Assembly: GCA_024398875.1 (NCBI GenBank)
Contig: JAKSIJ010000015.1
Coordinates: 1 to 64,000 of the forward strand
Direction of reading: 5' to 3'
DNA length: 64,000 bases
DNA from: Fibrobacter sp.
Lineage (GTDB): Bacteria; Fibrobacterota; Fibrobacteria; Fibrobacterales; Fibrobacteraceae
A program made the position numbers and the translations under genes. Shown in pieces: positions 36,400 through 42,633 of this stretch. The notes below the pieces were generated by a model. That model was not told the DNA's origin, did not search any database, and was given only the letters and a program-made list of their open reading frames with translations. The number at the start of each line of letters is the position of its first letter. The first letter of the stretch is position 1.

Positions 36400-37656
36400 T
36401 TATCGTTTGAACTTTTCCGCGCACTGGATGGCTTCTTTGACGATGTCCTCTTCGCCATCTACATGCCCGTTCCGCATCACAAACTTTCCATTGCAAATCA
36501 CGGAATCAATGGCGTTTGAATCTGCACCATAAACCCAGTTGGAGATTACATTGTAGCATGGCACCATGCGTTCGTTGTCCAGCCGTACCAGTAGGGCATC
36601 CGCTAACTTTCCTTCCTCAATAACGCCAGCGTCCCAGCCAAATGCCACGGCGCCATTTCGGGTGGCCATTTTCAAAATGTCTTCCGCTTTAAGAGTGTCG
36701 GCGCTACCGCCAGGGCAGTTCTTTTCGAGAAGGGCTGCAAACTTCATGTCCTCATGCATGTCCAGGTTGTTGTTGGAGGAGGCTCCATCGGTACCGATGG
36801 CAAGGGGAATGCCTTTTGCTATCATGGCCGGTATCTGTGGAATTCCGCTGACCAACTTTAAGTTGGAACAAGGATTGAGGGCAATCGTGGCTCCTGTTCT
36901 TTTGAGAATGTTGTAGTCGTTATCCACCATATTGGTGCAATGGGCGGCTACCCAGTGCACACCTTCAATACCACAGCGTTCAAAAAGTTCTGCAGGCGTG
37001 CATCCATATTTCTCTTTGCACTGCAAGTTCTCATATAAAGTTTCAGAAAGATGGGTGTTCAGCACATAGCCCTCTTCCCGGGCAGTCTCAATGCAGCGTT
37101 TAAGCAGTTCTTTATTTACCATGTACACGGAGTGGGGCATGACGGAAATTTTGATCCGTTCGTTTTCTCCCCAGTGGTCGTGTAAAAATTTGAAGTTTGC
37201 TTCCATGGCGTCTGCGGTAGTAAGGCCCTCGGCAATGGTTACGCCAATGGTGGCGCGAATGCCCATTTCGTTCACGACCTTCATGGTGTTCTGACGGTGC
37301 CAGTACATATCCGCAAAAAAGACGGTTCCGGATTTAATCATTTCCAAAACGGCAAGCCGGCTGCCGATTTCGATGTCTGCATAAGTCATTTTGGCTTCGA
37401 AGGGCCAGATGTATTCCCGCAACCACTTGTTCAATTCCATGTCGTCGGCATAGCCACGCAAAAGAGTCATAGCGGCATGGGTGTGGGCGTTATAGAATGG
37501 AGGGAGAATGGCAAGTCCCTTGCAATCCACGACATCGGTATTCTTGAGTGTGGTAGCGTCAATGCTATCGGCAATCTTTGCAAATTTTCCCTGTGTAATG
37601 AGAATGTCGCAGGTCTTGTTATCTTTGTAAACGGACTTTAGAAGTAAATCGTTCAT
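36400..37656 (-). CDS. mtaD: 5-methylthioadenosine/S-adenosylhomocysteine deaminase family amidohydrolase
   Basis: A 418-aa metal-dependent amidohydrolase of the MtaD/TrzA/SsnA branch. Metal ligands are visible in FYNAHTHAAM, NTHLSETLYE, WVAAHCTNM and IGTDGASSNNNLDMHED. Close relatives deaminate MTA, SAH or other adenosines to inosine derivatives, so a purine-nucleoside substrate is likely; guanine deaminase or chlorohydrolase activity is less likely. It is the last gene of the alarmone/anti-sigma/MATE operon, 9 bp after the MATE gene. Confidence 0.85.
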   Translation of the reverse strand: MNDLLLKSVYKDNKTCDILITQGKFAKIADSIDATTLKNTDVVDCKGLAILPPFYNAHTHAAMTLLRGYADDMELNKWLREYIWPFEAKMTYADIEIGSRLAVLEMIKSGTVFFADMYWHRQNTMKVVNEMGIRATIGVTIAEGLTTADAMEANFKFLHDHWGENERIKISVMPHSVYMVNKELLKRCIETAREEGYVLNTHLSETLYENLQCKEKYGCTPAELFERCGIEGVHWVAAHCTNMVDNDYNILKRTGATIALNPCSNLKLVSGIPQIPAMIAKGIPLAIGTDGASSNNNLDMHEDMKFAALLEKNCPGGSADTLKAEDILKMATRNGAVAFGWDAGVIEEGKLADALLVRLDNERMVPCYNVISNWVYGADSNAIDSVICNGKFVMRNGHVDGEEDIVKEAIQCAEKFKR

Positions 37657-37665
37657 AGTTGACTC

Positions 37666-39378
37666 TTATATTTTTGGAAATTCAAAAACGTGGCGGTTGT
37701 AACTCGTGGTGAGTACGTAGGCTCTTTTTTCTTGGTAAACCATCAAACTTGTCACCATATAGGCACGCAGATTGGAAACGGACATTTCCAGATTAGTCAT
37801 GTCCAACAATTTTCCAGAATTTTTCAGAATGAGGGAAACGCTGTTTTCTTTTGCTAACAAAGAGCATTCTCCGTAATGCATTTTCCCTTTGTTTTTTTCG
37901 ATGAAGGCCATGTTCATCTCTTCAATCAGAAGCATCGCCTTCATGCGGATGTTGGGGCTGACGCCCTCGATAGTGAGGCTCTTGGCGACTTGGTCCCGCA
38001 GGGAAACAATGGCGGCGGGGGTCATCGGATAATCAAACTGGTAATAGCAGTTTTGGTCAAATTCGTTGAGGAACAGCGGAAATTCGGTGCGCCCAAACTT
38101 GAGGATGAATATGAGACTGCATAATCCGAGAGTAAAAATAGGGGCTAGCGCGCATCCTGCCCACAAACCGGTTTTACCAAACTGAATGCCCATGAGCGTG
38201 ATGACTGTGACGGGAACCGCCAAATTTCGCATCACGGAAATGAACATGGCGAACCAGGGGTGCTCATGAAGGTAATAATTGTTGTACAAATTCACAAAGG
38301 CGAGCGCTAATAGGCCCAGGGAGGCGATTCTGATAGCTGCAGCAGTGGAGTTTTGTAACTCAGGGGTCTGGATGTGAAACAAAAGTACCAGCAGTGGGGC
38401 GCAAACGAAAGCCCCAATTGTTACGAAGAGGCCTTCAAAGAAAGCGGTCCCGTTCACATAGTGCATTAGTCGCCTGATTCCAACTGCGTTTTCTTCGGCG
38501 CGGTAGATGTTGATGAGGGGTTCTGCCGCTTGCCAGATGCCTCCGAATATAACGGTCATTTCCAGACCTTCGAACATCACGGAAAGGGTAGTGAGCGTGT
38601 TCTCGTCAAAGTATCGGGTGACGAATTGGGAAAGTAGAAAAGTCAGTAATGCAAGGTAGAGATATTCGCAGGCTTCTACGGCACTGAAGCGAAATGCCAC
38701 CAAAACATCTTTGAAATTTAGATGGAATTTGAAACGAAGAGAATTCTGTTTTTGAAAAAAATGAAGACTCAAAATAATGAGTCCAACAAGCGAAGAAATG
38801 AATGTGCCTAGCACAATTCCTTCCATCCCGTATTTTCCTCCAAGAATCCAGGATAGCAGAAAGTTTCCAATGATGAGGATGCCGTTGTGGAAATTTACGA
38901 TGCGCGTGTCTCCGTCCGCCTGCACCATGTTCATGAGTACGCAGGAAAGGGGAATCAATAGGGAAACCCAAGGGAACCACTTCATGAATTGGTTAATATA
39001 GGGAGCCAAGTCTGCAGTGGGATTCATGATGCCTAAAACAAGGCCGCTACCGATGGTATTGACCCCAAGCAGAATGCATCCCGCAATAATTGCAAGTATA
39101 ACCGCTTGTCCGAAAAATTCGTACGCCCGCTCTTTGTTTAACTTTCCGATTTCGTAGGTGTAGCAAACAGAACTGCCAACGGCAATGGCGGTTCCAATAA
39201 ACAACATGAATGAATAGATGGGGACAATATGAGTGTAAGCCGCAAGAGCGGTTTCCCCTAACAAATGGCTAGAAACGAGGGTGTCTTCAAAAATTGTCAC
39301 AAGCCACACCACGATGGATGCGCTCGCCGACAACAGCAGTGAGAAAAAGCGCCGGACGCTAAAAGACAGGTTTTGCAC
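37666..39378 (-). CDS. MATE-family transporter with C-terminal RsbW-like domain
   Basis: A 570-aa membrane protein. Residues 1-430 carry about twelve hydrophobic segments with MATE features (FEDTLVSSHLLGETALAAY at the start, VQADGDTR in the first half, a second half from ~225). MATE proteins export cations, drugs or metabolites using Na+ or H+. Residues 445-570 are a soluble domain aligning with the adjacent RsbW-like ATPase: LLIEEMNMAFIEKN at the N-box position (E486, E487, with Ala at the usual Asn) and LKNSGKLLDMTN at the DxG position. Key ATPase residues are lost. The GTG start follows the STAS stop with no gap. Confidence 0.85.
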   Translation of the reverse strand: MQNLSFSVRRFFSLLLSASASIVVWLVTIFEDTLVSSHLLGETALAAYTHIVPIYSFMLFIGTAIAVGSSVCYTYEIGKLNKERAYEFFGQAVILAIIAGCILLGVNTIGSGLVLGIMNPTADLAPYINQFMKWFPWVSLLIPLSCVLMNMVQADGDTRIVNFHNGILIIGNFLLSWILGGKYGMEGIVLGTFISSLVGLIILSLHFFQKQNSLRFKFHLNFKDVLVAFRFSAVEACEYLYLALLTFLLSQFVTRYFDENTLTTLSVMFEGLEMTVIFGGIWQAAEPLINIYRAEENAVGIRRLMHYVNGTAFFEGLFVTIGAFVCAPLLVLLFHIQTPELQNSTAAAIRIASLGLLALAFVNLYNNYYLHEHPWFAMFISVMRNLAVPVTVITLMGIQFGKTGLWAGCALAPIFTLGLCSLIFILKFGRTEFPLFLNEFDQNCYYQFDYPMTPAAIVSLRDQVAKSLTIEGVSPNIRMKAMLLIEEMNMAFIEKNKGKMHYGECSLLAKENSVSLILKNSGKLLDMTNLEMSVSNLRAYMVTSLMVYQEKRAYVLTTSYNRHVFEFPKI

Positions 39379-39675
39379 TTAGACGATAGTCAGGATGTCA
39401 CTGAATCCGGTGACATCAAGGACTTCCTTGATTTCCGGGCAGACATTGCGGACTTCCATCTTGCCTTGCTTGTTCATCTTCTTTTGAGCGGCAAGCAAAA
39501 CGCGGAGGCCTGCGGAAGATACATAGACCAACTTGGCGAAATCAAAGGCCAAATCGGTAACGCCTTCCAGGCTGTTGTTGACTTCAGCTTCCAATTGAGG
39601 AGCTGTCATGGTGTCCAGGCGACCTTCCAGGGCGAAGGTGAGGGAGGAGTTTTCTTTTGTCTTTACGATTTCCAT
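39379..39675 (-). CDS. STAS-domain anti-sigma factor antagonist (RsbV-like)
   Basis: A 98-aa single STAS domain. It has the LEGRLDTMTAPQLEAEV opening and the phosphorylation loop VYVSSAGLRVLL, in which S54 occupies the position phosphorylated in SpoIIAA/RsbV. Unphosphorylated STAS proteins of this type bind the kinase-like anti-sigma partner. The RsbW-like partner gene ends 8 bp upstream. No sigma factor or PP2C phosphatase is seen nearby, so the final target may be another protein. Confidence 0.92.
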   Translation of the reverse strand: MEIVKTKENSSLTFALEGRLDTMTAPQLEAEVNNSLEGVTDLAFDFAKLVYVSSAGLRVLLAAQKKMNKQGKMEVRNVCPEIKEVLDVTGFSDILTIV

Positions 39676-39683
39676 GTTATCCT

Positions 39684-40085
39684 CTATGCTAAATTCTTGT
39701 AAATGGTTAGTTGATTTTTGTTGTCGGCGCGTTGGTATTCCATACCATCCATGGTCTTCTTCACAAGGAAAATCCCAAGGCCACCAATCTGCCGTTCCTC
39801 GGCGGAAAGAGTGATGTCAGGGTCTGCCTTGATGAGGGGATTGTAGGGAACGCCGGAATCAATAAATGTGAGTTTGACCTGTTTGGGGTCGTTCTGAACT
39901 TCCACCTGAATGGTGGCGTCTGCTGACTTGGAATAATGGACTATATTGCTGAAAAGTTCGTCAATAGCCACGTTGAGCTGCATTTGGGCCTTCATGCTGG
40001 GATTGTAAGATTCCAACGCAGACTCCACAAAGGCTGTAACCTTGTCCAGATTTTCTAAGTCTGTATGTACCGTAATCTCTTCCAT
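39684..40085 (-). CDS. RsbW-like anti-sigma/serine kinase ATPase
   Basis: A 133-aa GHKL-fold (HATPase_c_2) protein. The N-box LNVAIDELFSNIVHYS (E43, N47), G1 FIDSGVPYNPL (D76) and G2 IGGLGIFLVKK are all intact, so ATP binding and phosphorylation of the neighbouring STAS protein are expected. In RsbW/SpoIIAB systems this protein holds a sigma factor inactive until STAS binds it. The absence of a sigma gene and the presence of a related domain on the MATE protein suggest a different client. Confidence 0.9.
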   Translation of the reverse strand: MEEITVHTDLENLDKVTAFVESALESYNPSMKAQMQLNVAIDELFSNIVHYSKSADATIQVEVQNDPKQVKLTFIDSGVPYNPLIKADPDITLSAEERQIGGLGIFLVKKTMDGMEYQRADNKNQLTIYKNLA

Positions 40086-40101: not shown

Positions 40102-41511
40102 TTATTTCAAAACAGTTTTGTGGAGGTGATCTAGCATCCAGGGGTCAAATTTACCGGTGCGGTTACTGAAGAATATCATGTAAAGACAGGCGTAAGGTGC
40201 CAATTCTTCCGTTTTTGCTGTGATATCAGTATCCTCACCGAAATATTCTCGCAGGAAAATGTTCCAAATTTGGAGAATTTGCGCTTTGGTGATGTGGTAG
40301 AGTTTTTCCACCAAGAAATCAGGGGTGTTTTGGCATACGAAGTAGAACATTCCGAAATCATAGTAAGGATTGCCGTAGCGGAAGTCCGCCAAATCGATCC
40401 AATAGTATTTTCCCTGACTTACAATCATGTTCCCGATATGCATATCGCCATGGAGGCAGGTAGATGTTGCAGGGGTATTTGAGATGAGTTGGACGAACTT
40501 GTACTTTTCTTCGTCCGTCAAGAGCTTATTGTTGTTGATGGCTTTCTTGAAATGTTCTTCGGCAGAATTGAAGATATTTTTATCGCAAGGGGTACCGTGA
40601 AGCTTTTTGCAAAGCCGTGCAAACTCTCGCGTATAGAATTCCAACTTCTCGGGCTCCTCAGAAATTGCCCGTGCAATAGATTTCTTGGGTGTGATACGCT
40701 CAAATTCAATGCCTGTCCGTTTGCCATCGGTCACAAGCCGTAGTGCTTTGGGCGTCACAATTCCAGAATCTAGGACAGACCAGGCCACCTGCAGTTCTTT
40801 GGCGGGTTCTGTAGAGGGGATGAAGTCGGAATAGAGTTTCATCATGGTTTTCCCGTTCTTGTGGTTGTAGCTGATGGCGGTATAGCCGTCGCCGCTTTCC
40901 ACATAGTCGTCCATGTTGATGAGTTCGGGTTTGGGTTGCCCAAAAATCTCATTGATGGCCTTGGCGAATTCTGTGTAGGCGTGAGAACCCACCAAATCGC
41001 TCAAGGCGTCAGCCAGACCGCGGTAATGCCACTCATGTTCTGCGGGATCTTTCGTGTGGAAGAGATTCCAAACCTTATCTCCGATTTCCTTGTAATCACG
41101 AAGAATGGCTCTTGCATTGCTGAGCTTGTCGCCCATAGCCACAATTTTTGCATCTCGGGAGGCGTTTTTCAGGCGATTGATGGCGGCCTCCTTACGGATG
41201 TGCCAGCTATCCTCTTCGCTAAGTCCTTCAATGAACTTGTCGGATTCCTCTTCAACGATTTTGGCAACGCGGTCGCCGAATTCGTGGCGGATATCCTCTA
41301 CGGTAACATCAGTATCTTCTACGGTATCGTGAAGTGCGGCGGCTGCCAAAAGCTCCTGGTCCTTGGTCAGGGTGGAAACGATTTCAACAGCTTCCAGAGG
41401 ATGAACGATGTAAGGGAAACCTTTTCCGCGACGCTCCGTTCCTTTATGGGCGTTGACTGCAAAAACAATTGCCTTGTCTAATAGGGATGTGTCTAAAGGT
41501 TTATTTGCCAT
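40102..41511 (-). CDS. HD-type alarmone hydrolase domain fused to APH-like kinase
   Basis: A 469-aa two-domain protein. Residues 1-190 are a RelA/SpoT-type HD hydrolase: H37 in YIVHPLEAV, H61-D62 followed by E65-D66 in ALHDTVEDTDV, and D128 in MGDKLSNARAI. The metal and ED residues of active (p)ppGpp hydrolases are kept. Residues 205-469 are an aminoglycoside phosphotransferase/choline kinase-like domain with catalytic LHGDMHIGN (D356, N361) and metal-binding WIDLADF (D373). A Fibrobacter paralogous family of APH-like proteins is known (TIGR02172, recalled, not searched). The alarmone synthetase gene ends 6 bp upstream. Confidence 0.87.
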   Translation of the reverse strand: MANKPLDTSLLDKAIVFAVNAHKGTERRGKGFPYIVHPLEAVEIVSTLTKDQELLAAAALHDTVEDTDVTVEDIRHEFGDRVAKIVEEESDKFIEGLSEEDSWHIRKEAAINRLKNASRDAKIVAMGDKLSNARAILRDYKEIGDKVWNLFHTKDPAEHEWHYRGLADALSDLVGSHAYTEFAKAINEIFGQPKPELINMDDYVESGDGYTAISYNHKNGKTMMKLYSDFIPSTEPAKELQVAWSVLDSGIVTPKALRLVTDGKRTGIEFERITPKKSIARAISEEPEKLEFYTREFARLCKKLHGTPCDKNIFNSAEEHFKKAINNNKLLTDEEKYKFVQLISNTPATSTCLHGDMHIGNMIVSQGKYYWIDLADFRYGNPYYDFGMFYFVCQNTPDFLVEKLYHITKAQILQIWNIFLREYFGEDTDITAKTEELAPYACLYMIFFSNRTGKFDPWMLDHLHKTVLK

Positions 41512-41517
41512 AAAATC

Positions 41518-42627
41518 TTACTTGTTCATGAATGAAAGTTGTTTTGCTGTAGCCATCATTCTTGCCGCACGCTTGTTGTTGTAGTCGGATTCTCCGTACA
41601 AGACGTCGAACATGCTCTTCAGGGCCAGTTCTCCACCGCCATTGCTCAAGAGGTAGACCACCACAAGGTTTTGTACGGCAACAGAAGAATTGATGATGTC
41701 AATGTCGGTTCCGGCAATTTGGTAAACAGCCAACTGGTAGGCGTCGTCGCTGAAATGGGCCTTCATCTTTTCCACATCACCCAAGGTTTTAAAACGAAGA
41801 AAACGGAAAACTTTTAGGTAGCCAGTCATGTCGGAATCGTGGATTTCAGCTTGGTTGATGGCGGCAATCTTCTTATTGAGCTTGTCAAAGGGATTCAACT
41901 TCATGTAGTTGCTGAAGGAATCTCCATCCAGGGGAACTTCGTCGAATTTGCCAGATGCCACCAGCGACTGCACCTTGCGGCGGTAGTCCGTAATGCCAAC
42001 GCGGATGAGACTGAACTGCTCGTCGGCCAGTTCCAGCATACCGGCAAGGCGGTTCATGTTTCTCAAGTATTCTTTGGGGATTTCCACATCGGTTTTGTAC
42101 CCCATGTCGTGGTCAATGGTAGACCACACGTGCTGCAAGGCGGTTCGCATCTGGAGTTCAAAACGGTATTCGTTGATTTCCGGGTGTTCCGGGTCGTAGT
42201 ACAAGGTTTTGGGAATGCTACAGATGTAGTGGAGGGAACTGTAGCCAAAGCTGTGGAGTTCGTGCATCTTTCGTTTGTCGATGCTGTTCTGCCAGTCGAT
42301 GTCAAAAACGTGGTCCACCAGGGCCGCAATCTTGTCCACTTCGTCGGTGTAGAAGGTAATGATTCGCGCACCGAGAATGTCCGTTAAATCGGAAAGGTTG
42401 GTGTACTTGGCGCCTTTGAGTTCAAGCTTCCCTGCAAGGGATTTTTCTGCTTTGATGCGGATTTCAAGAGCATTGATGTAAAGGTTATTTTGCTGAATGC
42501 TGTCTTCCAATGCCTTTTTGACAATGGATTTCATCTTCTCAAAAATAGGGAGTCTTTCGCGATACTGCTTTAAAATGGAATTGCAGTGCTCGTTCAGACC
42601 ATATTTATCTAGGGGATTTTCACTCAT
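41518..42627 (-). CDS. RelA/SpoT-domain (p)ppGpp synthetase without hydrolase or TGS/ACT domains
   Basis: A 369-aa protein whose first ~190 residues are a RelA/SpoT nucleotidyltransferase domain: TDILGARIITF (D83), HSFGYSSLHYI (125-135) and RFELQMRTALQHVWSTIDHD (E157 and the following H). All catalytic motifs appear intact. The other ~180 residues are helical with no TGS or ACT domain, so it does not resemble ribosome-bound Rel. It could make pppGpp/ppApp or pyrophosphorylate another substrate. It is first in a six-gene operon. ATG 42627 is 6 nt after TATATT, with no Shine-Dalgarno; an in-frame GTG is at 42633. Confidence 0.87.
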   Translation of the reverse strand: MSENPLDKYGLNEHCNSILKQYRERLPIFEKMKSIVKKALEDSIQQNNLYINALEIRIKAEKSLAGKLELKGAKYTNLSDLTDILGARIITFYTDEVDKIAALVDHVFDIDWQNSIDKRKMHELHSFGYSSLHYICSIPKTLYYDPEHPEINEYRFELQMRTALQHVWSTIDHDMGYKTDVEIPKEYLRNMNRLAGMLELADEQFSLIRVGITDYRRKVQSLVASGKFDEVPLDGDSFSNYMKLNPFDKLNKKIAAINQAEIHDSDMTGYLKVFRFLRFKTLGDVEKMKAHFSDDAYQLAVYQIAGTDIDIINSSVAVQNLVVVYLLSNGGGELALKSMFDVLYGESDYNNKRAARMMATAKQLSFMNK

Positions 42628-42633
42628 ACCCAC

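Follow-up and report, generated by a model that had tools for sequence, protein, structure and literature searches.

The window that we analysed, a stretch of 64,000 nucleotides from a Fibrobacter sp., contains at positions 40102-41511 of the minus strand a single frame of 469 amino acids that begins with ATG and runs without internal stops. Pfam finds HD_4 at residues 14-136 of the product (E 3.3e-18) and APH at residues 239-402 (E 1.1e-11), and a structure predicted with 44 related sequences in the input has a pLDDT of 94.5 and a pTM of 0.79. The fusion is genuine: one frame encodes a full small-alarmone-hydrolase (SAH) HD domain and a full APH-fold kinase, joined in the fusions compared by a linker of ~8-12 residues between domain boundaries, with no extra domain. 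The preliminary description of this DNA had proposed such a protein, with HD residues H37, H61-D62, E65-D66 and D128 and the kinase motifs HGDMHIGN and DLAD, and all of this has stood: the two domains are borne out by Pfam, NCBIfam and predicted fold, the HD residues are as given, and the kinase motifs occupy residues 354-361 and 373-376 with the catalytic residues intact.

The HD half (residues 1-192; 40936..41511, minus strand) also carries R27 and N132, and its six motif residues are invariant in an alignment of 94 relatives. The metal and catalytic residues line up with those of 7qoe, 4yf1 and 7qoc, and the predicted fold superposes on RelH of C. glutamicum (7qoc) with a Z of 25.5 (1.8 A over 181 residues) and on the Leptospira SAH 7qoe with a Z of 24.4. 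It has the SAH fold, and the chain has no synthetase, TGS or ACT domain; only the APH domain is added. With the known SAHs (RelH, 7qoc/7qod; the Leptospira levettii SAH, 7qoe; Mesh1; and Tde-SAH, PMC10434055), it shares the fold (Z 22-25.5), all residues of the HD motif and the size of the domain. Those enzymes stand alone, whereas the predicted hydrolase here has a kinase fused or adjacent to it and a partner switch linked to it. Two apparent complications among relatives went away on inspection: in the HD fusion proteins of 680-820 residues from some Fibrobacter, the extra residues appear to come from a different gene read in antisense and attached to the genuine HD start, and those HD sequences with an internal stop that we inspected were alignments overrunning a natural stop, not decaying genes.

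The kinase half (residues 198-469; 40105..40920, minus strand) belongs to the APH-fold family TIGR02172 of NCBIfam, which matches residues 198-423 at 237.6 bits, above its curated cut-off of 228.2. Its K225, H354, D356 (within the HGD of 354-356), N361 and D373 are 100% conserved in 49 relatives and its E239 96%. Other fusions score alike (236.1 for L163 and 235.0 for L118), an unfused relative, L051, falls just under the cut-off at 225.6, and the STAS-APH proteins of Bacillota, to which we return below, lie beneath it at 104-114 bits. By fold, the half resembles APH(3')-Ia (Z 19.5) and the choline kinase LicA (Z 17.4); in these fold matches, identity is 11-17%, whether the match is APH(3'), choline kinase or another small-molecule kinase. 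No aminoglycoside-kinase equivalog appears among the NCBIfam matches of the window protein at E 0.01, the relatives' kinases reach only 15-24 bits against such equivalogs (cut-offs 205-400), and a search by sequence found no solved aminoglycoside kinase. Aminoglycosides, which the preliminary description had listed as candidate substrates, are thus unlikely ones for this TIGR02172 member. Stand-alone TIGR02172 kinases exist too: there is one on C5 of the same genome, and a tandem pair lies outside the cassette in each of two Fibrobacter loci (L137, 9412-11129; L139, 9357-11074).

What company does such a protein keep? It is the second of six genes on one strand, in the order synthetase, fusion, RsbW-like kinase, STAS protein, MATE transporter and amidohydrolase, with gaps of 0-16 nt across the five cassette genes plus MATE. 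An alarmone synthetase of 371 residues (41518..42633, minus strand; RelA_SpoT, E 1.2e-15) ends 6 nt before the fusion starts. On the other side, after 16 nt, comes an RsbW/SpoIIAB-like HATPase of 133 residues (39684..40085, minus strand; HATPase_c_2, E 2.8e-21; spIIAB, E 7e-8), of the partner-switch serine kinase type, whose E43, N47, G78 and G101-G104 are 100% conserved in 40 relatives. Next is a STAS protein of 98 residues (39379..39675, minus strand), of the anti-sigma-factor-antagonist type (TIGR00377, 56 bits, above cut-off), with a YxSSAGL phosphorylation loop in which S53, S54 and G56 are 100% conserved in 51 relatives. The synthetase, the RsbW-like kinase and the STAS protein, all missing from the preliminary description, also belong to the cassette; the role in alarmone signalling that it had proposed is supported, and the adjacent synthetase makes that role far more likely. 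In alignments of all five families (synthetase, HD, APH, HATPase and STAS), the catalytic or phosphorylation residues are intact.

The MATE gene (37666..39378, minus strand; MatE, E 1.5e-16), whose start codon abuts the STAS gene, probably belongs to the operon; its linkage to the cassette is seen only in this species complex. Its product has ~130 extra C-terminal residues, and the idea that these are a decayed RsbW-like HATPase is weak (E 8e-5 with the profile of the cassette family, and a probability of 12% in hhalign). An amidohydrolase gene of deaminase-like type (36400-37656) follows 9 nt later, a linkage observed only in the window and in the sister genome G086.

In the synthetase, a RelP/RelQ-like catalytic domain extends to about residue 220 and is followed by a C-terminal region of ~135 residues that is predicted to be helical and has no Pfam match. 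R59, K61, S65, K69, Y131, H135, E159, Q161 and R163 are 100% conserved in 60 relatives. In profile comparison it scores 66-70 bits to RelP/RelQ structures vs 25 to CapRel, with neither FaRel nor PhRel listed among the matches, and by fold Z is 18.5 to RelP and 18.1 to RelQ vs 12.3 to CapRel and ~7 to FaRel2. Sequence and predicted structure thus make it a relative of RelP/RelQ, and not RelQ itself, because it scores 53 bits against the YjbM equivalog, whose cut-off is 320. Besides it, the same genome encodes just one RelA_SpoT protein, a long Rel. PDC-S33, a candidate defence model of PADLOC, also matches the synthetase domain (41518-42633; E 2.9e-16). A useful comparison is Tde-SAS (DsRel, SAS-TPR) of Treponema denticola, in which a helical C-terminal region brakes synthesis and which is paired with an SAH (PMC10434055). 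The catalytic domain, the helical C-terminal region and the SAH partner are common to both; in our case, however, the C-terminal region is ~135 residues vs a TPR of ~180 (the two being likened by helical character, not by homology), the hydrolase gene is adjacent, and the cassette adds a kinase and a switch.

Is the fusion an accident of one genome? The preliminary description had held that its reading would fall if the fusion were unique to one assembly, which is not the case. We find 11 single-frame HD-APH fusions in 11 assemblies, window included, from Fibrobacter and Bacteroidales; the ten further assemblies (loci L115-L118, L035, L036 and L163-L166) have the join in one frame without internal stops. 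They are Fibrobacter G102, G122, G079 and G085 and the Bacteroidales genomes of L035 and L036, both MAGs from horse faeces, together with G251, G355, G511 and G510. In the order to which L035 belongs, five of the 393 genomes sampled have the fusion. Identity to the window protein among fusions is 55-73% for the HD halves and 40-54% for the APH halves, and dN/dS, where computable, is ~0-0.09 (HD) and 0.06-0.15 (APH): both halves are under purifying selection. The recurrence of the join in 11 assemblies and the low dN/dS rule out chance, a frameshift or an assembly artefact. In G086 the fusion is split by a contig end, with the HD part at the end of C7 and the APH part at the start of C4. Counting this cut gene as fused, the fusion APHs form one clade (99/89); an AU test rejected their monophyly solely through the labelling of G086 as unfused. 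On the HD tree, fused and unfused forms are intermingled, which may reflect losses, new joins or transfer.

The fusion joins two genes that are separate neighbours in most relatives, and for that reason we regard it as a pointer and the cassette as the finding. Tracing hydrolases of the window clade into Bacteroidota and Bacillota, we find near the HD gene in Bacteroidota a synthetase at 39 of 47 loci, a HATPase with STAS at 30 and an APH at 25. The commonest layout there is synthetase, hydrolase, kinase, a sensor-SpoIIE phosphatase with a C-terminal HATPase, and STAS, an unfused run found at L043, L047, L051, L053, L057 and L065. Among the fused Bacteroidales, L163-L165 have a single run of HATPase, dCache-HAMP-SpoIIE, STAS, synthetase and HD-APH, and L166 has the same parts. 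In Bacillota, a kinase with an N-terminal STAS domain (STAS-APH) lies near the HD gene at 17 of 20 loci and a HATPase at 13; no synthetase is adjacent, so the hydrolase there must act on another source. These STAS-APH fusions (18 loci) form one clade at 100/100, and at L083 (5674-7281), also in Bacillota, a single chain of 535 residues reads STAS-APH-HATPase, and the hydrolase comes directly after it.

Fibrobacterota have a synthetase near the HD gene at 21 of 23 loci, an APH at seven and HATPase with STAS at two. Most Fibrobacter have the HD-synthetase pair without an APH or a switch; the kinase and the switch are therefore not required for the core pair. The presence of the synthetase depends on that of the hydrolase: 49 of 80 Fibrobacter genomes have both, 10 the HD protein alone and 21 neither, and none of the 80 has a full-length synthetase without the hydrolase (Fisher 4e-12, kinship ignored). 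In G127, a fragmentary synthetase lies at a contig end with no hydrolase visible.

The likeness to SpoIIAA/SpoIIAB/SpoIIE and RsbV/RsbW/RsbU is considerable: a STAS protein with conserved serines, a GHKL kinase whose N box and G boxes are intact and, in many relatives, a sensor-PP2C phosphatase. No SpoIIE phosphatase was matched among the window genes scanned; one is present in relatives from Bacteroidota and Bacillota and in Fibrobacter L141. Unlike those systems, the cassette has alarmone enzymes linked to it and, in Bacillota, STAS-APH proteins, and no sigma factor is seen among the annotated neighbours in the window or at the relatives' loci; a sigma-factor target could be unlinked. Next to the sensor-SpoIIE gene at L054 (7402-8463), and likewise at L050, L060 and L070, are genes for NMT1/THI5-like substrate-binding proteins, perhaps a ligand-binding partner of the sensor.

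How might these parts work together? In RSH enzyme chemistry, synthetases make and HD hydrolases remove guanosine or adenosine alarmones, and in a partner switch, an RsbW-like kinase phosphorylates a STAS protein and a SpoIIE phosphatase reverses this on signal. The neighbouring synthetase would make (p)ppGpp or a related alarmone, and the HD half very probably removes it. Together, STAS and the RsbW-like kinase would make up a partner switch; in relatives, a membrane sensor bearing a SpoIIE-type phosphatase domain would reset it, and the state of this switch would control, or be controlled by, the APH kinase and in that way bear on the balance of hydrolase and synthetase. We see the kinase as the putative connector of switch and alarmone turnover because the fusions attach it to the hydrolase in the window, to STAS in Bacillota and to STAS plus HATPase in L083.

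Sequence and predicted fold give five parts, intact catalytic residues, and linkage and fusions that recur in three phyla, and from these we lean towards a cassette in which a partner switch governs alarmone turnover locally and the APH kinase joins switch to hydrolase. That the switch acts on alarmone turnover, be it in place of a sigma factor or in addition to one, we would call an even bet. We offer more tentatively, as a scheme that we think less likely than not, that the output of the switch (sensor-SpoIIE phosphatase, RsbW-like kinase and STAS) goes directly to second-messenger turnover and not to a sigma factor, and that the APH kinase, tethered to STAS or hydrolase, phosphorylates a component of the cassette or a nucleotide-derived small molecule and in doing so sets the balance between synthetase and hydrolase. 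Gene linkage speaks for a shared pathway, not for a direction of control.

The same genes can be read differently. The synthetase could be a toxic SAS, acting through damage to tRNA or depletion of ATP. HD-APH would then be the antitoxin: its HD half would reverse the product, in the manner of ATfaRel, and its kinase would perhaps phosphorylate the toxin. The adjacent, bicistronic layout, the presence in the genus of hydrolase without synthetase and never the reverse, and the PDC-S33 match would all suit this reading, and there is a known example in Cellulomonas, where an SAH antitoxin is encoded next to FaRel (PMC11782079). The cassette resembles FaRel/ATfaRel in having a synthetase and an HD hydrolase in one operon, but neither profile nor fold places the synthetase closest to a toxSAS subfamily, its nearest kin being RelP/RelQ. 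The cassette also has an added kinase and a partner switch; such a switch, conserved together with its sensor-phosphatase, is foreign to toxin-antitoxin systems. There is, moreover, a single copy, on the chromosome, and a broad distribution in the genus that looks vertical, and no copy of the fusion was found in phages or plasmids. A toxin-antitoxin pair accounts for the neighbouring genes and their asymmetric occurrence, not for the RelP/RelQ affinity or the switch, and we consider it unlikely.

RsbW-like and STAS proteins are classic regulators of sigma factors, and the switch might simply control an unlinked one, with the alarmone pair and kinase as merely co-transcribed stress genes and the kinase making a housekeeping phosphometabolite. 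TIGR02172 members do stand alone on C5 of this genome and in the L137/L139 tandems, and small molecules are what the closest functional analogues in fold phosphorylate. This arrangement explains the switch but not the fusions: in the single proteins STAS-APH and STAS-APH-HATPase the kinase is physically attached to the switch, in HD-APH to the hydrolase, and the linkage recurs in three phyla, all of which leaves it improbable. Least probable by far is an enzyme of resistance to aminoglycosides or other antibiotics that was fused by accident, to which the fold similarity to APH(3')-Ia might point; against it stand the TIGR02172 assignment, scores far under every aminoglycoside-kinase equivalog tested, the failure to retrieve a solved aminoglycoside kinase by sequence, the signalling genes that are its operon partners, and the purifying selection that maintains the fusion.

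Every component of the partner-switch cassette belongs to a known family; the HD-APH architecture and the cassette as a whole are apparently undescribed. The preliminary description knew of no characterisation of the architecture, in agreement with the open literature that we searched, where we found no account of either. For Fibrobacter, Atkinson et al. 2011 list two divRel proteins and one hydrolase, Mesh1-L; a kinase fusion of this sort is not mentioned in the passages found (PMC3153485). The cassette is of more interest than the fusion alone. Enzymes of alarmone metabolism are usually viewed as taking their cue from ribosomes, charged tRNA or metabolites; if our reading is true, a SpoIIE/RsbW/STAS switch would connect an extracellular sensor (the dCache domain) directly to the ppGpp level in lineages from gut and rumen that belong to three phyla, and the uncharacterised TIGR02172 kinases would gain a testable context.

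What, then, might the kinase phosphorylate? Kinases of the APH fold act mostly on small molecules. CcrZ, a regulatory kinase of the choline-kinase fold, phosphorylates ribose and deoxyribose (PMC9135335). For these two reasons, we slightly favour a small-molecule product over a protein target: by analogy, a small molecule is somewhat the better guess, and a protein of the cassette is a possible but more doubtful one. The likeness to CcrZ is that of an APH/choline-kinase fold, the regulatory role being that of CcrZ itself (PMC9135335), and the kinase is not a CcrZ, the CcrZ model giving 16-18 bits on STAS-APH and stand-alone members (cut-off 400). A gene of the tyrosine-phosphatase family Y_phosphatase3 recurs beside the Bacteroidales cassette (L058, 7487-8293; also L035, L036, L068 and L070), and its product is a possible counterpart to the kinase.
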